DNA of 45,469 nt, from contig JAHDWA010000071.1 in NCBI GenBank assembly GCA_023382535.1, positions 1 to 45,469 of the forward strand, written 5' to 3'. This document shows, in pieces, positions 338-10,099 of this stretch; the first letter of the stretch is position 1; each line of letters opens with the position of its first letter. The translations under genes and the position numbers were made by a program. The DNA comes from Anaerolineae bacterium (GTDB lineage Bacteria > Chloroflexota > Anaerolineae > 4572-78 > J111). Below the pieces are notes generated by a model that worked only from the letters and a program-made list of their open reading frames with translations, ran no database searches and had not been told where the DNA came from.

Positions 338-1195
338 TTATCCGGGAAAGTTTTTATTTTTGCTCAAAAAGTTTAACAAGTGAACCACAAATTGAGCCGG
401 CTCTTCCAGCGGGAAAAGGTGCCCCACATTTGTTACGATTATTCGTTCGCAGTTAGACAAATTTGCGGCGGCCGCTTCCGTGACAATTCTAAACAAGGGC
501 CGGGTTTTTTCACCCCAGGACACACAAACGGGCAGAGTTGTGCGCCGTAAATCTTCTTTTCTCAGGATAGGCGGAGCCAGTTGGGACAACTGTAAGGGGA
601 GCGTATGCGCATTTTCAAGCTGCTGCTGCCTGATCAGGTCCGATTGAGCTTCAAAATAACCCGGCTTCTGAGCGGAACCATCCATCAATTTTTCAACGCC
701 TTCTCTAATATTACCGCCAGCTACAGCCGCGAATACCGGGCCAAACATCTCCTGAGCATCCTGGCCAAATTGCTCGAGCTTCTGCTCATTTTCCACGTAG
801 GAAGGAAAACCGGGTTCATAGATAAACAAACTTTTCAGCAGATCAGGGCGATGGACTGCCACATTCAAGGCAACATCAGCGCCATAAGACCAAGCCACCA
901 GATGAACCGGCCCCAGGGCGAGATTTTCAATAAAGGCGGCCAGATCATGCGCATGAACGCCGATGCCAAACTCATGGGGCTCGGTTGGTAGAGATGACTC
1001 ACCAAAATAGCGCTGGGTCAGGGCAATAGCCTGATAATCGGCCGGCATCGTTTCGTAATGAGGCAACCACATTCGGTAATCCGCTAAAGCGCCGTGAACA
1101 AAAACAACAGGTTCCCCCTGCCCCCTGGTCATATAGGGAATGATTATACCGTTTACGGTCATATAATTGGTTTGATTTTGTTGCATCTGTCTCAT
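338..1195 (-). CDS. alpha/beta hydrolase
   Basis: A 285-aa alpha/beta-hydrolase-fold enzyme, probably a soluble esterase or hydrolase of small molecules; the substrate cannot be told. Visible hallmarks are the oxyanion-hole segment VVFVHGAL (residues ~30-37), the nucleophile elbow AWSYGA (GxSxG-type with Trp at the first position) near residue 103, and the C-terminal VGHLFPLEEP segment carrying the catalytic His. The length is normal for the family and there is no signal peptide. The ATG at 1195 follows a good ribosome site (GGGAGGTG). It starts 17 bases after the CPBP protease gene, so the two are likely co-transcribed from the module promoter at 2122-2191. Confidence 0.9.
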   Translation of the reverse strand: MRQMQQNQTNYMTVNGIIIPYMTRGQGEPVVFVHGALADYRMWLPHYETMPADYQAIALTQRYFGESSLPTEPHEFGIGVHAHDLAAFIENLALGPVHLVAWSYGADVALNVAVHRPDLLKSLFIYEPGFPSYVENEQKLEQFGQDAQEMFGPVFAAVAGGNIREGVEKLMDGSAQKPGYFEAQSDLIRQQQLENAHTLPLQLSQLAPPILRKEDLRRTTLPVCVSWGEKTRPLFRIVTEAAAANLSNCERIIVTNVGHLFPLEEPAQFVVHLLNFLSKNKNFPG

Positions 1196-1212: not shown

Positions 1213-2040
1213 TCAGGCGGGTCCTTCTTCGCTATCAGCGGAGCGGTCAGGCGTGAAGAAAATTGGCGGAAAGGCAAAGACAAGATAGGGCACGACTGCA
1301 CAGACCACCATCCAGGCTAGCGCTGCCGAGGTATAAAAAGCCTCGGAGATATTAACCAGTTTGATAACGTGAATGGCAAAGTGCAGTAAGGCTGGCCCCC
1401 AGATAGTTCGCCGGCCGCGATCAAACAGGTAAGCCAATGGCAGCGATGACGCAACAGCCAGGCTAATCGAAGTCAGCGCCAGCGGCAAACTGAGCGAGTT
1501 CAACAGCAGCAAGTGAACGGCCACGAAAGGGATTAGGGAAAGCCAGGCCGCCCGCCAGAAGGTGCGTCCTCTTCGCAGGTGTCCAAAGGCAAAGCCGCGA
1601 AACAACAACTCCTCGGCCAGGCCGTGCTGGGCAAACAGACCCAGCGCCAGCCACATCCAATCACTCCGCAGTGATACCGCTGCTCCGGTGACGAGTGAAA
1701 AGAGAGGAAAAAAGGCTAACAGTCCTAAACTGGCCAGCAATGTGACTCCTATAACTTGCGGGGTGGGGTAGCCTAAACCCAGCCGCTGCACGGCTTGCCG
1801 GATACGGGTTTTGAAAAACAGTCGTTCCACCAGTAGGCTGGTGGCAATAACCAGGGCGCAGACCAGCAGACCAGCTTCACCCCTTAAGCTTCCCAGCCAG
1901 CTCGCCGAGCGATCAAGCACGAGGAAGATCAGAAAAGTTCCCCCCATCACGGCGCCAAACTCTACCCACCGGGCTGGGTTATTCTTCATGGGTATTGGCT
2001 GGTTCGGCGGCGAAATTTCCGTGGAGTGAGGTTGTTTCAT
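1213..2040 (-). CDS. CPBP family intramembrane metalloprotease
   Basis: A 275-aa multi-pass membrane protein of the CPBP (CAAX protease / bacteriocin-processing, Abi) family, intramembrane glutamic-type proteases related to Rce1. The first conserved motif EELLFRG is at residues 143-149 (Glu143, Glu144, Arg148) and a later HFAIHV segment supplies the expected His. About six to eight hydrophobic segments are visible. Natural substrates of most bacterial members are unknown. It is the first gene of a leftward pair with the alpha/beta hydrolase and is preceded by one of three copies of a shared promoter module. A second CPBP gene lies at 8993-9814; the two are not close duplicates. Confidence 0.88.
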   Translation of the reverse strand: MKQPHSTEISPPNQPIPMKNNPARWVEFGAVMGGTFLIFLVLDRSASWLGSLRGEAGLLVCALVIATSLLVERLFFKTRIRQAVQRLGLGYPTPQVIGVTLLASLGLLAFFPLFSLVTGAAVSLRSDWMWLALGLFAQHGLAEELLFRGFAFGHLRRGRTFWRAAWLSLIPFVAVHLLLLNSLSLPLALTSISLAVASSLPLAYLFDRGRRTIWGPALLHFAIHVIKLVNISEAFYTSAALAWMVVCAVVPYLVFAFPPIFFTPDRSADSEEGPA

Positions 2041-2121: not shown

Positions 2122-2191
2122 AGTATAGCAGTAAACCAAGAGACCGTCAGTAACCAAAGTATGTATTTTGAGCCGGTAGGGGGTTGATTTT
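2122..2191 (-). promoter_or_regulatory. shared promoter module, copy 1 (drives leftward CPBP-hydrolase pair)
   Basis: Read on the minus strand: an AAAATCAACCCCC box (2191-2179), then ACTTTGGTTACTGACG with a -35-like CTGACG (2150-2145), a 17-base spacer and a TATACT -10 (2127-2122). The same ordered elements occur before the genes at 5399 and 7410. The predicted start lies roughly 75 bases before the CPBP start codon. Confidence 0.72.
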
Positions 2192-2260
2192 GGGAGAAGG
2201 CGACTGCGGAGATGATGGATTCCAGCTTAGGGCGCGGTGATAGGTAGCCCAAGCTGCTGA

Positions 2261-2289
2261 TTGGCAAAATAGGGGTTATCCCTTACAAT
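2261..2289 (+). promoter_or_regulatory. promoter of the MalT-like regulator, probably leaderless
   Basis: TTGGCA (2261-2266), 17-base spacer, TACAAT (2284-2289). The expected transcription start, about seven bases past the -10, falls on or next to the ATG at 2296, and no Shine-Dalgarno sequence fits before that ATG. This points to a leaderless mRNA. Confidence 0.6.
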
Positions 2290-2295
2290 GAGAGC

Positions 2296-5166
2296 ATGTC
2301 CGGCCCGCTGCTAACGACAAAGTTATATATTCCGCGCCAAAGCGCCAAACAGCCCCTTGTGTTGCGGCCTCATTTGACGGCGCGCTTGAACGAGGGGCTG
2401 AACGACCGGCTGACGCTTATCTCTGCCCCGGCCGGCTTTGGCAAGACCACCTTGCTGAGTAAATGGATTCCTGACGCTCAACACTGTGTGGCCTGGCTGT
2501 CATTAGATGCTGGCGATAATGACCCCATTCGTTTCTGGACCTACGGCATCACGGCTTTGCAAATGTTGCAGAACGGCTTGGGCCAAAGTGCCCTATCCTT
2601 GCTCCAGGCTCCGCAGCCTCCTTCGCTTGAATCCATCCTGACCCACCTAATCAACGAGCTGACCACCTTCCCGGATGATTTTGTCCTCGTGCTTGACGAT
2701 TATCACGTCATAGAAAACCCGGCCCTGCATGACAGCCTGGCCTATTTACTCAGTCACCTCCCCCCCAAGATGCATTTGATTCTCACCAGCCGAGCTGACC
2801 CAGCCCTCCCCCTTTCTCGGCTGCGCGCCCGCCGCCAGTTGACTGAAATCAGGGCCGCCGATCTGCGTTTCACCTCCGAAGAGACCGTCGCTTTTTTGAA
2901 TGAGGTCATGGGTTTAGACCTGTCAGCAGAGGATATTGCTGCTCTGGAAACGCGAACTGAGGGCTGGATTGCCGGGCTGCAACTGGCCGCGCTTTCAATG
3001 CAAGGCCGGAGCGACGTCAGCAGTTTTATCAAAGCATTTACCGGCAGCCATATCTACATTGTGGATTATCTGGCCGAAGAGGTATTGCAACGCCAGCCGG
3101 ACAGTATACAGACCTTTCTGCTGCAAACCTCCATCCTGGAACGTATGAGCGGCGCCTTATGTGATGCCGTCACCGGGCGAGATGATAGCCAAGCCGTGTT
3201 GGAAAAGCTGCAACGGCACGACCTGTTTATCATTCCGCTGGACGACGAGCGCCACTGGTATCGCTATCATCATCTCTTTGCCGAGGTGCTGCGCGTCCGC
3301 CTGCAAAAAGCCAATCTCTCGCCAACAGGGGGTGTAGCCGAACTCCATCGCCGGGCCAGCGTGTGGTATGAGCAGCAGGGCTGGATGGCCGAAGCTATGG
3401 AGCATGCCCTGGCCGGCGGCGCCTTCGAGCAGGCCACCCACCTGCTTGAACAATTGGGGTTGATCGTCTTCGCCCAGGGCGCGATGCAGTATATGCTTAA
3501 CAAGTGGCTGGCGCTCCTGCCAGACGAGTTGGTGCGGGTTCGGCCCAAACTCTGCCTTATCCAGGCCTGGCTGCTGTTCACTCGGATGGATCCTGAGGCG
3601 GCGCGTCACCGGCTGGAGGAAGCTGAACGAGCTTTGCGCCAACAGGATAAGTCAGGCGATGACAGGGATGACGCTCGAAATACCCAGGGGGAGATCGCGG
3701 CGACGCGGGCGCTGATCACCACCTATAGTCGCCATTTTGATCCTGATCAGGTCAATCGCTGGGCTAACGAAGCGCTGGCTTACCTGCGCCCGGACAACGC
3801 TACCTATCGGGGAGTAGTGTTCGGGGCTTTGGGGACGGCCGCCATGCAGCAGCTTGATGTGGCGCGAGCAGAACAGGCCTTTACCGAAGCGGCAACGATC
3901 AGCCGGGCCGCCGGCCATGAGTACATCGCCCTTGCCACCGTGGCCCACCTGACCAATATTCAGCGGGCCGGGGGCGCTCTCAGCCGGGCCATCCTCACCT
4001 GCCAACAAGCCCTTGCCTGGGCCGCCGAGCATGGCGCAGAGACGACCTTCGCGGCGGGGACTATCTGTATCAATTTGGCCGACCTGCTGCGCGAGCGCAA
4101 TGATCTGGACGCAGCCTTGCGCTATGCTAATGCCGGGGTTGCCTGTTCTCATCAGGGTGCTCACCTCTTCCTTTTCATCGTCGGTTCCCTGGTGCTGGCG
4201 CGGATCAAACAAGCTCTGGGCGATCTGGCCGGTGTCTTTGAGTTAGTGGACCAAATGCGGCGATTAGCGGCAGGTCACTATCAGGTTGACTGGGTCTTGG
4301 CCTTGTTGCCAGCAGTAGAGGCCCACCTCCGCCTGGCGCAAGGCGACTTGCCGGCAGCGACCCAGTGGGCACATCATACGGATTGGGCCGAGACGTTGCC
4401 CCCCCATTTTCGCGGCACCCATCATTTCGTCTATGCCTACGAATACGGCGGTATGACCCGCGCCCAAGTGCTGATCGCCCAGGCCTGGTCTCATCCTGTC
4501 ACCCCTTCGGTAGCAGGTTCAGCCCGAACCGAGCAAGCTGCTATCCATCATGACTTTTTGCCCGACGTGATTGCCTACCTTGATCGTCGAGGCCAGGTGG
4601 CCGAGGCCAGAGGGCTGATGTGGCTGCGCATCAAGGTGTACGCCCTCCAGGCGCTGGCCTACCAGGCCCTGGGCGACACGGCGCGAGCTGTGGAAAGGCT
4701 GGAACAGGCACTCCCCCTGGCCGAGCCGGAAGGCTACATCCGTATCTTTATAGACGAAGGCGCACCGATGGCCGAATTGCTACATCAGGCAGCGAGGCGA
4801 GGCCTTGCTCCAAACTATATAAGTAAACTATTGACTGGATTTCCGGCAAAGGAGCAGCCTCAGCCGGAGGTTTCGCCGGGGAGCGGCGGACTGCCGGGTA
4901 CGGAGCACCCGGCGGAGGGGCAAATAGCTATTTCTTCTCCTGTGCCCCTCCGCACCCCTGCACCCCTGCTCGTTGAGTCATTGACTCCCCGCGAACTTGA
5001 AGTACTTCAGCTCATGGCCGCCGGCCACTCGAATCAAGAGATTGCGCGGGCGCTGGTCGTCTCCGTAGGCACGGTCAAAAAGCACCTCAATAACATCTTT
5101 GGTAAACTCGACGCCACTAGTCGCACCCAGGCGGTAGCGCGGGCAAGAGAACTCCACCTGCTCTAA
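2296..5166 (+). CDS. MalT-like LuxR family transcriptional activator
   Basis: A 956-aa large ATP-binding LuxR (LAL/MalT-type) regulator. The N-terminal STAND NTPase has a Walker [10 protein letters not shown] at residues 44-52 and a Walker B-like [10 protein letters not shown] near 135-144. Then come winged-helix and TPR-like superhelical segments (~250-830), a low-complexity linker (~850-890), and a C-terminal LuxR helix-turn-helix (~896-956, starting [15 protein letters not shown]). In the MalT family, an inducer and ATP drive oligomerisation and promoter activation; the inducer here is unknown. It sits among hydrolase genes that share one promoter module, so it is the obvious candidate controller. 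The linker carries an 11-base inverted repeat. Start: ATG at 2296, apparently leaderless. Confidence 0.93.
4912..4953. repeat. inverted repeat inside the regulator linker
   Basis: GCGGAGGGGCA (4912-4922) is perfectly repeated in inverted orientation as TGCCCCTCCGC (4943-4953). It lies in the Pro/Gly-rich linker between the TPR part and the DNA-binding domain, next to a CCCCTG-rich run. It reads through in frame, like a small hairpin repeat inserted into the gene. Confidence 0.7.
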
Positions 5167-5184
5167 AAGCAGGAATTCAGGAGA

Positions 5185-5240
5185 CTCATAGGAACTCAAG
5201 CAGCTTTAAGTTCCTACAAGTTCCTTTGAGTTCCTATGAG
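5185..5240 (+). terminator. long hairpin after the regulator gene
   Basis: A perfect 15-base stem: CTCATAGGAACTCAA (5185-5199) against TTGAGTTCCTATGAG (5226-5240), 26-base loop. There is no strong T run afterwards (ATTTCA), so it may be a stabilising or weakly terminating hairpin. The right side contains three 10-base steps of AGTTCCT (5209-5236). Confidence 0.6.
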
Positions 5241-5284
5241 ATTTCACCCCGGTAATACAGCATCACCCTATTACCTCTTTCTTC

Positions 5285-5346
5285 AAAAATCAACCCCCAA
5301 ATACAACTTTTGGCAACTGACTCTGCCCCTGGTTGATGGCTATACT
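5285..5346 (+). promoter_or_regulatory. shared promoter module, copy 2
   Basis: AAAAATCAACCCCC (5285-5298), ACTTTTGGCAACTGACT with -35-like CTGACT (5317-5322), 18-base spacer, TATACT (5341-5346). It is nearly identical to copy 3 from the ACTTTTGGC segment through the -10. It drives the beta-lactamase-like gene with a leader of roughly 45 bases. Confidence 0.78.
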
Positions 5347-5398
5347 GGAACTATCCAATTCAAATGAGTTTAATCCATTTTTTAGGGGGATCAATATC

Positions 5399-6574
5399 AT
5401 GGCTGCAGTAAATGTATCACCTATCGGGACAAGTAAACAAGACCCATCTCTGGTTGAGATTCACGGGGTGTGCCACGACCGGTTCAGCCGGGTGCGGGAC
5501 GTACTGGTGCAGAACCTCGCCACGGGTGATGACATTGGCGCGTCGGCGGCGGTTCTTATTGACGGCGAGCCGGTGGTGGACATTTGGGGCGGATATTTCG
5601 ATGGGGCGTTCACTCGTCAGTGGGAACGCGATACGATCATCTGCACCCATTCGACCACCAAAACCATGACGGCCATGGCGGCGCTCGTCCTCGCCGATCG
5701 GGGCATGCTCGATCTGAACGCGCCGGTAGCGGAATACTGGCCTGAATTTGCGGCCAATGGCAAGGGCAAGATCGAAGTTCGCCAGCTCCTCGGCCACACC
5801 TCCGGCCTGGCCGGCTGGACGGAAGATGTGACTTGGGAAGATGTCTATGATCTGGAAAAATCAACCGCCTTGCTGGCGAAACAGGCCCCCTGGTGGGAAC
5901 CAGGTACGGCCAGCGGTTATCACGGCCTGACCCAGGGCCATCTGGTCGGTGAGGTTATCCGCCGTATCACCGGCCAAACTCTCGGCCAATATTTCGCGGC
6001 CGAAATCGCCGGGCCTCTCGGCGCTGACTATCATATCGGCACCGGCCCCCAATACGACCACCGTGTCGCTCCCTTTATCCAGGCCGTGCCTGAGGGAGGT
6101 ACCAACGGCAACTGGATGCATGATCGCGTGGCCACGAATCCGAATCTCAGCCCGGTCACTTCCTCGAGTATCCCCTACCGCCGGGCCGAGATCGGCGCTG
6201 CCAATGGGCACGGCAATGCCCGAGCGGTCGCTACCATCCATTCCATCCTGGTTGCTGAGAAAGTCAACGGCGTGCGTCTGTTATCTGAAGCCGGGCGGCT
6301 AAAGGTGCTCGAACAGCAATCCGATGGAATAGATCTCGTGATGGATATTCCTGTTCGTTGGGGGCTGGGCTTTGCTTTGGAATCGGCGGTCTTCGAGAAC
6401 AGGCTGGGTCATCGGGTAGCCTATTGGGGTGGTAACGGTGGGTCATTGGGCTTTGTTGATTTCGATGAGCGGATGGCGGTTAGTTTCGTCATGAACCGCT
6501 GGATCGAGGGGCCTTACGAACAAGTCCGTAATCAACGCATCCTGAAGGCTGCTTACGACAGTCTGGCGGGGTAA
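5399..6574 (+). CDS. serine hydrolase, beta-lactamase / family VIII esterase type
   Basis: A 391-aa enzyme of the class-C beta-lactamase-related superfamily (Beta-lactamase domain; includes EstB-type esterases and D-aminopeptidases). The catalytic SxxK is STTK at residues 85-88, the Tyr motif is YHG at 174-176 (YxN-like), and a C-terminal WGGNGGS segment stands where the KTG/HTG strand is expected. There is no signal peptide, which argues for a cytoplasmic esterase or amidase rather than antibiotic resistance. I chose the ATG at 5399 because TTAGGGGGATC lies just before it. An upstream in-frame ATG at 5333 would fall inside the promoter. A terminator-like hairpin follows at 6598. Confidence 0.9.
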   Translation: MAAVNVSPIGTSKQDPSLVEIHGVCHDRFSRVRDVLVQNLATGDDIGASAAVLIDGEPVVDIWGGYFDGAFTRQWERDTIICTHSTTKTMTAMAALVLADRGMLDLNAPVAEYWPEFAANGKGKIEVRQLLGHTSGLAGWTEDVTWEDVYDLEKSTALLAKQAPWWEPGTASGYHGLTQGHLVGEVIRRITGQTLGQYFAAEIAGPLGADYHIGTGPQYDHRVAPFIQAVPEGGTNGNWMHDRVATNPNLSPVTSSSIPYRRAEIGAANGHGNARAVATIHSILVAEKVNGVRLLSEAGRLKVLEQQSDGIDLVMDIPVRWGLGFALESAVFENRLGHRVAYWGGNGGSLGFVDFDERMAVSFVMNRWIEGPYEQVRNQRILKAAYDSLAG

Positions 6575-6597
6575 GTCCGTCTTGAAGGATACCACTC

Positions 6598-6643
6598 AGG
6601 CAGGGGTTGTGACTGCCGGTCCAACGCCTGCCTCTTGTTTTTT
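6598..6643 (+). terminator. terminator after the beta-lactamase-like gene
   Basis: Stem AGGCAGG (6598-6604) with CCTGCCT (6627-6633), 22-base loop, followed by CTTGTTTTTT. The short stem and T-rich tail fit a Rho-independent terminator. Confidence 0.6.
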
Positions 6644-6705
6644 CAATCTCAAGCGAAAAGGTTATCATAAATAGACTCTCGTCTTTTTTCCTCGATAGGG
6701 GGTAA

Positions 6706-7194
6706 ATGCAGCTTCTTTTCCGGCTCGGAATACTCGCCGCTGCCTGGCTTGGCAGCATCATTGGCCTAATCTTGGTCTTACCATTGGGTTTGATCGTCGC
6801 GGAGTGGCTTATCTTCCCTCTGGCGCTGGTTATCGCCGCCCTTTTAGCTGCTCTCGGCGCGGGTTGGACCGGTACCTTCCTGGCCCGCGATCAGACGCGA
6901 ACCAACCTCGTACCGGTTATTAGCCTCACGGAGGCTGTAGCTGTCGGAGTCGCGTTAATTTTCTTGATGATGGTCAGGTTGGGGATGGCCAGCTTTGGAC
7001 CGCTGATCTTCCCTGCAGTGATTTTTAGCCTGATCCTGACTCTTAGTGCGAGTGCCGCCACGTGGCGTTTCCGCCATCCAAAGCAGGCCAGCGGAGGCGA
7101 AGTCAAACTGACGGTGATATTGCTGGTGCTGGCTGTGGTCAGTGTACCGGGCGTGATTTTCCTGGCCTCGCTCTTTGGTTTGGCCGGCGCATAA
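6706..7194 (+). CDS. small integral membrane protein, unknown function
   Basis: A 162-aa protein I do not recognise. It is strongly hydrophobic, with about five membrane-spanning stretches (residues ~4-30, 33-55, 70-90, 93-115 and 135-160) joined by short polar loops such as ARDQTRTN and RHPKQASGGE. GATAGGGGG just before the ATG is a good ribosome site. It stands between two genes that share a promoter module but lacks that module itself, and it is closed off by a clear terminator. It may depend on read-through from the beta-lactamase-like gene or on its own weak promoter. Confidence 0.75.
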   Translation: MQLLFRLGILAAAWLGSIIGLILVLPLGLIVAEWLIFPLALVIAALLAALGAGWTGTFLARDQTRTNLVPVISLTEAVAVGVALIFLMMVRLGMASFGPLIFPAVIFSLILTLSASAATWRFRHPKQASGGEVKLTVILLVLAVVSVPGVIFLASLFGLAGA

Positions 7195-7236
7195 CAACGC
7201 TGTCGGCAAGTTAACAAATCTACTGATCTTCAAGCA

Positions 7237-7268
7237 AAAGAGCCTTGGCTAGCACGAGGCTCTTTTTT
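7237..7268 (+). terminator. Rho-independent terminator
   Basis: AAAGAGCCT (7237-7245) pairs with AGGCTCTTT (7257-7265), 11-base loop, and the stem runs into TTTTTT. It ends the membrane-protein transcript just upstream of promoter copy 3. Confidence 0.88.
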
Positions 7269-7285
7269 ATTTCCCTGTTTCTCCC

Positions 7286-7358
7286 AAAAATCAACCCCCT
7301 TCAACCCTTCAAATACCACTTTTGGCAACTGACTCAGCCCCTGGTTGATAGCTATACT
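7286..7358 (+). promoter_or_regulatory. shared promoter module, copy 3
   Basis: AAAAATCAACCCCC (7286-7299), ACTTTTGGCAACTGACT with CTGACT (7329-7334), 18-base spacer, TATACT (7353-7358). The box lies 29 bases before CTGACT, against 18 bases in copy 2. The 11-base difference is one DNA turn, so the elements keep the same helical face. Confidence 0.78.
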
Positions 7359-7409
7359 GGAGTTATCCAATCTAATGAGTCCAATTCATTTTTCAGGAGG
7401 AACCATATC

Positions 7410-8960
7410 ATGGCTACAGCAGCTATATCACAAAATATAGATACAATCGTTCAGACCACGCGCGGAGCGGTGCGTGGCACGTGGGAGAATGGCATCGCCG
7501 TGTTTCGGGGCATTCCCTATGCCGAGCCTCCGGTCGGAAAACTGCGGTTCAAGCCGCCGGTCCCGCGTCAACGCTGGGAAGGAATACGCGATGCCACCCG
7601 TTTCCGCGAGATTGTGCCACAGACAGATCAAAGCCCCATTGACGCGCTGGGTCTGCCAGAGGGTGTCCCCCAAGGGGACGACTGTTTGAACTTGAATGTG
7701 TGGACCCCGGAACCAGGGCGAGCCTCGCTGCCGGTGCTGGTCTGGATCCATGGTGGCAGCTTCAAATGGGGGGCCGGTTCATGTCCCGGATATGATGGGG
7801 CGACCTTCGCCCGCGAGGGCATTGTGACCGTCACCCTCAACTACCGGCTCGGCGCTGCCGGTTTTTTGTATGTCGGCGACCGTCCCGGCTCGGGCAACTT
7901 CGGGCTGCTTGATCAGATCGCGGCGCTCCAGTGGGTGCAGGAAAACATTGCCGCCTTCGGCGGCGATCCTGCGCGAGTTACGGTTGCGGGGGAGTCCGCT
8001 GGGGGCTTCAGCATCGGCCAGCTTCTCGCCGCACCTGCGGCCCGCGGGCTTTTCAATCGAGCGATTGTGCAAAGCGGTGGTACCCAATTACACATCAAGG
8101 CCGAGGCCGCTTCGATCATCGGCGCTGAGGTACTGAGGCGACTGGGCGTAAGTCCCCAGGACGACGATGCGTTCGCGGCAGTCACCTCAGCTCAATTGTT
8201 GGCTGTGCAGCGTGCAGTGGAGCCAGAAATCTTTGCGTTGGTGGCTAACAGCCCGGTCACCCTGGACCTGCTGCCGCGCTTATTCGTCGTCTTCGTACCT
8301 ACTTATGGCACCGATGTGCTGCCCGAACGCGCGCTCCTGCCTATTGGGCGCGGCGTAGCACGAGATGTAAACCTGATGGTGGGCTGGAACGCGGATGAGA
8401 CGATGGTATTCTATCCGACACGTGAGGCTCAGCAAGGCATGCTGAAGCTTATTGAAGAAGCGGCTGATTTCGCCTTCTCGCCTATAGGGAGATCAGGTGT
8501 GAAGGTGCTTGAGCGCTATCAGGTAAGCCGGTCAGGGACGGACCTTGCCGACGCCGTCGTGCCTTTTGTGACCGATATGTTGTTTGGCATTCCCTCCATC
8601 CGCCTGGCCGAGACCGCCCAGCCGCACAACCCGCACACGTATATGTACCGCTTTGCCTGGAAAGGCAGCATGGGTGCAGTTCATGGACTGGAGATAGGAT
8701 TCATGTTCGACAGCATGGAAAAGGCACGGAACGTGGCCACTGCTTTAGGCGCACCCAATCCGCCTCAGGCGCTCGCCAGGACGATGCATGGCGCGTGGGT
8801 GAATTTCATCAAGACCGGCTCGCCGCAGCATCCCAACCTGCCCGAGTGGCCAGCCTATGACCCGATTCGGCGGGCGACCATGCAGTTCGACATCGAGTCT
8901 CGTGTTGTGGATGATCCCGACGGCGAGGAGCGCCGGTTGTGGGATGGAATCCAGTACTAA
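7410..8960 (+). CDS. type-B carboxylesterase / lipase family protein
   Basis: A 516-aa carboxylesterase of the cholinesterase / p-nitrobenzyl esterase family. Visible are VFRGIPYAEPPVG (residues 31-43), DCLNLNVW (91-98), the oxyanion loop HGGSF (114-118), the nucleophile motif GESAGG (Ser196), the acid in GWNADE (Glu330) and the His in AVHGLEIGF (His425), so the catalytic triad is complete. There is no signal peptide and the length is typical. I use the ATG at 7410, preceded by CAGGAGGAACC; a longer frame from 7245 would run through the promoter module. The second CPBP gene follows 32 bases later, probably in the same transcript. Confidence 0.92.
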   Translation: MATAAISQNIDTIVQTTRGAVRGTWENGIAVFRGIPYAEPPVGKLRFKPPVPRQRWEGIRDATRFREIVPQTDQSPIDALGLPEGVPQGDDCLNLNVWTPEPGRASLPVLVWIHGGSFKWGAGSCPGYDGATFAREGIVTVTLNYRLGAAGFLYVGDRPGSGNFGLLDQIAALQWVQENIAAFGGDPARVTVAGESAGGFSIGQLLAAPAARGLFNRAIVQSGGTQLHIKAEAASIIGAEVLRRLGVSPQDDDAFAAVTSAQLLAVQRAVEPEIFALVANSPVTLDLLPRLFVVFVPTYGTDVLPERALLPIGRGVARDVNLMVGWNADETMVFYPTREAQQGMLKLIEEAADFAFSPIGRSGVKVLERYQVSRSGTDLADAVVPFVTDMLFGIPSIRLAETAQPHNPHTYMYRFAWKGSMGAVHGLEIGFMFDSMEKARNVATALGAPNPPQALARTMHGAWVNFIKTGSPQHPNLPEWPAYDPIRRATMQFDIESRVVDDPDGEERRLWDGIQY

Positions 8961-8992: not shown

Positions 8993-9814
8993 ATGAACAG
9001 CATCAGCTCAATCATCAAACGTCACCCGCTGGCAACCTTCTTTATCCTGGCCTATGCCTGTTCGTGGTGGTCGGTGCCCTTCGACGGTACGCAATTTGCC
9101 TTCGGGCCATTGATGGCCGCCATCGTCGTCTCCGGGCTGATAGGCGGCAAAGTGGAATTCAGGGAATGGGTTCGCTGCTGCCTACGCTGGCGGGTAGGGA
9201 TTGGCTGGTACGCCGTGGCGTTATTACTCCCGTTTGGGATCAATGCCACCGCGGCGATGCTAGCGGTCCTGCTCGGCGCACCATTTCCGAGCGCCACCCA
9301 GCTCAGCCGCTGGCCCGAATTATTCATCGTCTTCGTGCTTTATCTGGTCGCTTTCGGCCCGCTGGGCGAGGAGCCGGGTTGGCGCGGCTTCGCCATGCCG
9401 CGGCTGGCCGCACGACACTCGGCGCTTGTCGCGAGTCTGGTTCTGGGATTGGCAGTAGCAATTTGGCATCTGCCGCTGGTGTTCGTGGGTAAACAACCAG
9501 CGGTAATCTTGGGGGCGACCTTCGCGGCCCAGATCATGTACACCTGGCTGACCAATCATGCCCACGGCAGCGTGCTGATCGTGATGGTCGCACATGCCGT
9601 GCAGGGCGCCTGCGGGGAGTACTTCGGCCCGATGTTCTCCGGGGCAGGCGCGACGCTCCAGATCTGGCTGCTCGTCGCGGTACAAGTAGCGGTCGCTCTC
9701 ATCCTGGCTGCTCTGACCGGGCCGGAACTCGCCCGCGAGCCGTCCCCGCGAGTTGAACTGGTTCAGGTCGAACCGCCGCTGCGACCCTCGCCCGGTAGGC
9801 CAGAGGGTCATTGA
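8993..9814 (+). CDS. CPBP family intramembrane metalloprotease (second copy)
   Basis: A 273-aa multi-pass membrane protein of the CPBP/Abi family with the variant first motif GEEPGWRGF (Glu126, Glu127, Trp130, Arg131), typical of the EExxWRG subgroup, and later His-containing segments WHLPLVF and VAHAVQGA. About seven hydrophobic segments are seen. The C-terminal ~35 residues are polar and Pro/Arg-rich. It starts 32 bases after the carboxylesterase stop and probably shares its promoter. Its different motif subtype argues against a recent duplication of the gene at 1213. Confidence 0.87.
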   Translation: MNSISSIIKRHPLATFFILAYACSWWSVPFDGTQFAFGPLMAAIVVSGLIGGKVEFREWVRCCLRWRVGIGWYAVALLLPFGINATAAMLAVLLGAPFPSATQLSRWPELFIVFVLYLVAFGPLGEEPGWRGFAMPRLAARHSALVASLVLGLAVAIWHLPLVFVGKQPAVILGATFAAQIMYTWLTNHAHGSVLIVMVAHAVQGACGEYFGPMFSGAGATLQIWLLVAVQVAVALILAALTGPELAREPSPRVELVQVEPPLRPSPGRPEGH

Positions 9815-9850: not shown

Positions 9851-10099
9851 ATGACGTCCAAACCTCAACCCCACACTGGCTTGACCCTCTATCAAATCAG
9901 GGTCAAGGGGCATCTGCCCGACTATTGGTCAGACTGGTTTGGTGGGCTAACCCTGATCCTGGATGCCGAACGAGGTGAAACACTTCTGTCTGGCCCGGTT
10001 GTTGACCAGGCCGCCTTGTATGGCATTTTGCTCAAATTGCACAACCTGAATCTGTCGCTCCTGTCGGTAAACTGCGTCGAGGCCGAAGCTCAAGAGTAA
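9851..10099 (+). CDS. small conserved-looking protein, 82 aa
   Basis: An 82-aa soluble protein. The core reads like a compact alpha/beta domain: QIRVKGHLPDYWSDWFGG (residues ~15-32), TLILDAERGETLLSGPVVD and a C-terminal LLSVNCVEA strand. I recall similar short proteins (xIxVxGxLxxxWSDWF...G.V.DQAAL.G.L) in many actinobacterial and Chloroflexota genomes, annotated as hypothetical. No function is known to me. It starts 36 bases after the CPBP gene on the same strand and could be the last gene of the carboxylesterase transcript. Confidence 0.75.
   Translation: MTSKPQPHTGLTLYQIRVKGHLPDYWSDWFGGLTLILDAERGETLLSGPVVDQAALYGILLKLHNLNLSLLSVNCVEAEAQE

Follow-up and report, generated by a model that had tools for sequence, protein, structure and literature searches.

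The MalT regulator of Actinoplanes sp. SE50/110 has an activating effect on 40 of the 51 genes around its own gene, its dyad TCATCC-N5-GGATGA overlaps the -35 element of 17 start sites, and its function was tested by deletion and overexpression, as given in the available part of the source (PMC7567727). The same partial text gives the E. coli MalT box as GGGGA(T/G)GAGG (PMC7567727), and excerpts of three further articles describe four MalT sites on malPp800 that are bound cooperatively by oligomerised MalT (PMC10427625), a Vibrio promoter overlain by a MalT box (PMC8265627) and three heptamer repeats read by the SARP domain of PimR, a SARP-LAL regulator of Streptomyces (PMC5930380). Here, a promoter module present in three copies around a MalT-like LuxR regulator gene was characterised in a stretch of 45,469 nucleotides from an Anaerolineae bacterium (assembly GCA_023382535.1, contig JAHDWA010000071.1), referred to below as the window. 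Judged from its geometry and from comparison with other genomes, the module is probably an operator array that the adjacent regulator binds to activate a local hydrolase and CPBP regulon.

Promoter modules in the window

An earlier note on this DNA had described one ordered module at three places around the regulator, and all three copies were located in the sequence (Table 1). Each copy consists of an A box (AATCAACC inside AAAATCAACCCCC in every copy), a B site (AATACnnCTTTTGGnnACTGAC in copies 2 and 3, AATACATACTTTGGTTACTGAC in copy 1), an inverted third site (GGTTTA in copy 1, GGTTGA in copies 2 and 3) and the -10 element TATACT. The A box looks like a repeat of the proximal site. Conservation also extended to AATAC, which precedes the CTTT(T)GG block, and to GGTT(G/T)A, which precedes the -10. 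Mismatch-free occurrences of AAAATCAACCCCC numbered three in the whole window, all inside modules. With a score built from copies 2 and 3 (core, box and TATACT), copy 1 reached 45.2, compared with 23.0 at the best non-module place in the window, shifted readings of the module copies themselves (28.4, 25.1 and 24.3) being set aside, and with 20.7–23.4 in five shuffled windows.

The distance from A (AATCAACC) to B (AATAC) was 22, 12 and 23 bp in copies 1 to 3, differing by about one helical turn, and that from the start of B to the -10 was 40, 41 and 41 bp, inside the 39–42 bp range of the array promoters described below. The spacer of 17–18 bases given earlier was not confirmed, since 18, 19 and 19 bases were measured from ACTGAC to TATACT. 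The genes behind the modules encode unrelated proteins, as had been claimed: CPBP/Rce1-like, beta-lactamase-family (PF00144) and carboxylesterase.

Identity between copies 2 and 3 was 92% over 62 bp and 79% in the 61 bp that follow, which extend past the leader to the first codons. The 79% applies to 5360-5420 and 7371-7431, where two unrelated genes have their leaders and opening codons, and it seems that a promoter was duplicated together with its 5' end and then captured. As these two copies represent one duplicated promoter-plus-leader, the window provides two independent witnesses, copy 1 alone being independent of the pair; the three copies are real, but they do not count as three witnesses. 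The shared leader and first codons would also suit an explanation in which all three copies descend from a single promoter that was duplicated and taken over by other genes, and owe their likeness to recent ancestry with no selection for binding. This is extremely improbable, as copy 1 has preserved the boxes and the -35 and -10 elements despite diverged spacers and a diverged leader, and the layout recurs in other genomes ahead of unrelated targets.

In the proposed mechanism, the regulator would be activated by ATP and a ligand, presumably a small-molecule inducer, and its monomers would bind the array cooperatively, occupying half-site A, the dyad-like B and the third site just ahead of the -10, roughly on one helix face. 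The right arm of B abuts a poor -35 (ACTGAC), and the bound regulator would aid RNA polymerase where the -10 stands at a fixed distance, so that the hydrolases and CPBP membrane proteins encoded nearby would be switched on. The positions of B, abutting the -35, and of the third site, between -35 and -10, would equally permit a polymerase block, with the regulator as a repressor that occupies the -35 and the site ahead of the -10 until an inducer releases it. Such repression is unlikely, given that, in the portion of the source available, both the E. coli and the Actinoplanes MalT act as activators from sites located at the -35 or overlapping it (PMC7567727) and that a poor -35 would be expected for an activated promoter.

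Arrays beside other MalT-like regulators

These bacteria have numerous MalT-like STAND regulators, with first-look candidates often reaching tens per genome. Repeats were counted in the downstream regions of 109 MalT-like regulators, window included, each with at least 150 bp downstream. Direct repeats (7/8 bases) at 12, 13, 22, 23 and 35 bp were found in 40, 26, 30, 29 and 30 regions, compared with 5–17 regions at the remaining spacings from 6 to 40 bp, 1–14 in upstream regions and 3–12 in shuffled sequences. Repeats in coding DNA peaked at multiples of 3 (at most 27/104, at 21 bp) and amounted to 10, 7, 8, 5 and 12 at the same five spacings. A three-site score of at least 18 was reached by 52 of 108 downstream regions, against 0/89 upstream regions, 6/233 regions behind other open reading frames (ORFs) and 1/324 shuffles. 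At six wrong spacings, 1–4 of the 108 regions reached this score; two of the six also permit 35 bp (2 and 3 regions), and the remaining four gave 4, 3, 2 and 1.

The common plan comprises a half-site A, then after 12 or 13 bp a dyad-like site B abutting a TGAC-like -35, a third site about 22 bp on (a direct repeat, 22 or 23 bp after B) and a -10 at a fixed distance. Terminators were considered as an explanation of the dyads and were ruled out by the fixed distance ahead of a -10 and a gene.

A wider set was made up of 194 proteins collected by helix-turn-helix (HTH) match in the loci read, MalT-like domains not being confirmed for each, and was reduced to 183 by removing 11 loci with open frames shorter than 400 amino acids (aa). 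These 11 were omitted from the fresh matrix test, the arrays and correlations of the 183 set, the small-protein neighbour count and the letter-free finder, and were retained in the AATMAACC box counts, the helix-letter counts and the comparison by eye (L159 and L219 among them). The three-site array was found in 58 of the 183 regulators; in these arrays, counted from the start of B, 64 of the 84 TANNNT matches at 28–70 bp fell at 39–42 bp, and 35 of the 41 GAC matches at 17–20 bp. Two spacing controls on the 183 set, both of which permit totals near the real 35-bp repeat, brought 12 and 3 regions to a score of at least 18. With a letter-free finder (repeats, dyad and -10), 72/183 exceeded the 99th percentile of shuffled sequences, 61 exceeded the shuffle maximum and 1/183 coding controls passed; the finder's -10 offsets were taken from overlapping data (the 58-array step) and were applied equally to the shuffles and the coding control. 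These comparisons support a class-wide, regulator-linked array architecture, to which the window operator would belong. Its B site and -10 fit the plan, and A stands at 12 bp in copy 2 only, one turn farther in copies 1 and 3.

When the genome collection was scanned for the ordered module, a single match was obtained, in an Anaerolineae metagenome-assembled genome (MAG), placed between a same-strand upstream MalT-like regulator and a MerB-like gene, and an exact search of 396 genomes of the MAG's class found nothing beyond this known match. In the same 396 genomes, the core with up to two mismatches gave 36 matches in 31 genomes, compared with 33 for the reversed control; being barely commoner than the control, most of these matches are due to chance, and only those with 0-1 mismatch carry weight. 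There were four of the latter (L034 and L038 from the same MAG, L053 and L059). The pattern named beforehand as contrary to a local regulon, the module ahead of many unrelated genes in genomes lacking the regulator, was not encountered, three of the four (L034, L038 and L059) sitting directly downstream of a MalT-like regulator and the fourth (L053, G136) having none within the 16 kb read.

Three tandem AATAC-type modules were also observed in genome G127 (L069, 8908, 13645 and 16738, plus strand) around a MalT-like gene split into two reading frames. This is a second multi-copy local regulon resembling that of the window.

Site letters and the regulator helix-turn-helix

The letters of the site go with the HTH of the regulator, not with its N-terminus. 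Over 52 arrays, HTH identity and site similarity were correlated with a Spearman coefficient of 0.61 and, after correction for identity in the N-terminal 400 aa, a partial coefficient of 0.57 (maximum of 999 permutations 0.12), while the N-terminus with HTH controlled gave 0.05. Among the 58 arrays, the 1,255 pairs (of 1,653) whose downstream ORFs are not homologous gave 0.51 (permutation maximum 0.16), a value that controls target homology and, not fully, phylogeny. Nearest HTH neighbours with unrelated targets shared 0.70 of the site, against a mean of 0.48. TKS helices were paired with TCCCCA (8/8), TKN helices with TCACCA (14/18, the remaining 4 giving no call) and the single IKS helix (L136) with TCACCC, and the 36 KGH helices with repeated CAATAC/CCATAC in 13 cases and CAACAC in 9, although counts for neighbouring helices may partly mirror orthologous loci.

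The window-type box AATMAACC lay behind 13/49 K[KR]H regulators compared with 8/143 others (p = 0.0002), and was found in 1/191 coding stretches on either strand. Six loci with this box (L070, L159, L162, L172, L219 and L028) share the window's inverted GGTTKA before the -10; one box-to-minus-10 pattern fell short of significance (p = 0.054). By eye, the locus with the closest HTH by score (L158) has its box 21 bp ahead of B, as in copies 1 and 3, and L070 carries two boxes spaced in 12-bp steps. The sequence downstream of 108 other MalT-like regulators was scored with a matrix built from the three window copies. The window ranked first and five KKH regulators were in the top 11 (ranks 3, 4, 5, 8 and 11), with a KGH regulator at rank 2 and five KKH regulators at 20-83 (10 KKH vs 98 others, p = 0.002). 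Together with the core matches beside MalT-like regulators, these ranks support what the earlier note had called a local regulon with a readable motif.

Several observations weigh against an array read by the adjacent regulator. In 71 fresh regulators the matrix separated KKH helices weakly (15 vs 56, p = 0.037), and counts over thresholds were not significant (above 12: 2/15 vs 5/56). The box was absent within 330 bp for 18 of 29 KKH regulators, window included, and present for 5 of 12 KAH regulators. The strict letter-free module test was failed by 111/183 regulators, with a target elsewhere, a degenerate site or no such site as the reasons to consider, and the third site of the window is an inverted GGTTKA before the -10, not the direct repeat of the plan 22/23 bp after B. 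No MalT-like ORF was present within the 16 kb read around L053 (G136); the exact core site of this genome (L064, 7835, minus strand), followed by TATACT, stands without a MalT-like ORF in 16 kb. A related promoter type, TACAACTTTTGG-AATGAC, was seen ahead of similar genes at L035, L036 and L037 (in L065, L066 and L067), with small response-regulator-like ORFs nearby; the stretch read there contained no MalT-like ORF. The KKH helix alone was rejected as a predictor, being too coarse in the fresh regulators.

The sites lacking a MalT-like ORF in the stretch read, at L064 (G136) and L065-L067 (G326, G201 and G270), are what would be expected if some other factor read the module, either an unlinked regulator or an alternative sigma factor, with the MalT-like neighbour a bystander. 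This is very unlikely, because the site letters track the HTH of the neighbouring regulator even when the remainder of the protein and homology of the targets are controlled, and a shared sigma factor would not produce regulator-specific letters.

Beyond binding by the adjacent regulator, we favour, with some reserve, the view that the class of Anaerolineae studied here holds many paralogous MalT-like regulators beside promoters of a common three-site geometry, each with a private spelling set by a few recognition-helix residues in the manner of a lock-and-key code. If this is true, the code gives each regulator its targets, and DNA recognition of the LuxR type could be studied in a large data set supplied by nature. 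If the site can be read from the DNA beside the regulator gene, many regulator-site pairs would be obtained without experiments; base-recognition rules of the LuxR/GerE HTH would then be directly testable and regulons of uncultured bacteria predictable.

The local gene set and known MalT systems

The regulator matched the MalT TPR region (PF17874) with 213 bits (cut-off 45) and, at residues 894-949, the LuxR/GerE HTH (PF00196) with 68.3 bits (cut-off 23.5). Residues 20-397 (NTPase and winged-helix part) matched E. coli MalT (8bob, E 6.9e-64), which was the top match among solved structures; matches to the general AAA_16 and NACHT models were below cut-off. In the protein search with the regulator, PF25873 was listed for P0001, and the best named-organism relative belonged to an Anaerolineae bacterium (P0010, 56%). 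The second CPBP/Rce1-like gene possibly shares an operon with the carboxylesterase. Homologues of the 82-aa protein were found at most 1 kb downstream of 65/183 regulators examined, and MalT-like regulators may commonly have it as a target or partner. Between the regulator stop and copy 2, a perfect 15-bp inverted repeat was observed at 5185-5240 (arms 5185-5199 and 5226-5240, loop 26 bp), perhaps a terminator.

Table 1. Positions of the module copies, the regulator and nearby genes in the window.
Feature	Position	Strand	Description
Module copy 1	2122..2191	-	A box 2191-2179; B site 2167-2146, ending ACTGAC
Module copy 1, 3' half		-	Inverted third site GGTTTAC 2137-2131; -10 TATACT 2127-2122
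Module copy 2	5286..5346	+	A box 5286-5298; B site 5300-5321; immediately 3' of regulator gene
Module copy 2, 3' half		+	Inverted third site GGTTGA 5331-5336; -10 5341-5346
Module copy 3	7287..7358	+	A box 7287-7299; B site 7312-7333
Module copy 3, 3' half		+	Inverted third site GGTTGA 7343-7348; -10 7353-7358
MalT-like LuxR regulator, 956 aa	2296..5166	+	P-loop near N-terminus, TPR_MalT (PF17874), C-terminal LuxR/GerE HTH (PF00196)
CPBP/Rce1-like membrane protein (PF02517)	1213..2040	-	First gene behind copy 1
Alpha/beta hydrolase (PF12697)	338..1195	-	Second gene behind copy 1, after CPBP gene
Beta-lactamase-family serine hydrolase (PF00144)	5399..6574	+	First gene behind copy 2
Carboxylesterase (PF00135)	7410..8960	+	First gene behind copy 3
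Second CPBP/Rce1-like protein (PF02517)	8993..9814	+	
82-aa protein	9851..10099	+	No Pfam match

The E. coli box GGGGA(T/G)GAGG, with at most one mismatch, had four matches in the whole window, none in the modules, against a chance expectation of 9.5, and no maltose or maltodextrin genes were among the window targets (CPBP, hydrolase and esterase families). The E. coli MalT regulon is scattered. No paper on MalT/LuxR sites in Chloroflexi, Anaerolineae or Chloroflexota was found in the open-licence literature. The module had been called undescribed, which holds for its motif and this clade in the literature found and not for the type of system, a local MalT regulon with a dyad over the -35 being published for Actinoplanes in the part of the source available (PMC7567727).

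PimR resembles the array in its three direct repeats in a target promoter, and the proposed mechanism in its cooperative binding of monomers, and differs in that it is without a LuxR HTH, its heptamers stand at about 11 bp and its main operator is clear of the -35, as far as the excerpt goes (PMC5930380). MalT of E. coli and Klebsiella shares with the proposed array the repeated sites at the -35, several per promoter (parts of PMC7567727 and PMC10427625), and its cooperative binding by an oligomerising STAND protein (PMC10427625, in part) would have a counterpart in the window. Actinoplanes, within the text available, is the closest described case, with a MalT-like regulator, a regulon around its own gene and a dyad at the -35, many of its targets lying outside maltose metabolism as in the window; its letters are different, its region is larger (51 genes), and neither A nor the third site appears in that part of the text (PMC7567727). 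The system of the window would be a variant of known MalT-type local regulation, and its wider interest lies in decoding LuxR-type specificity.

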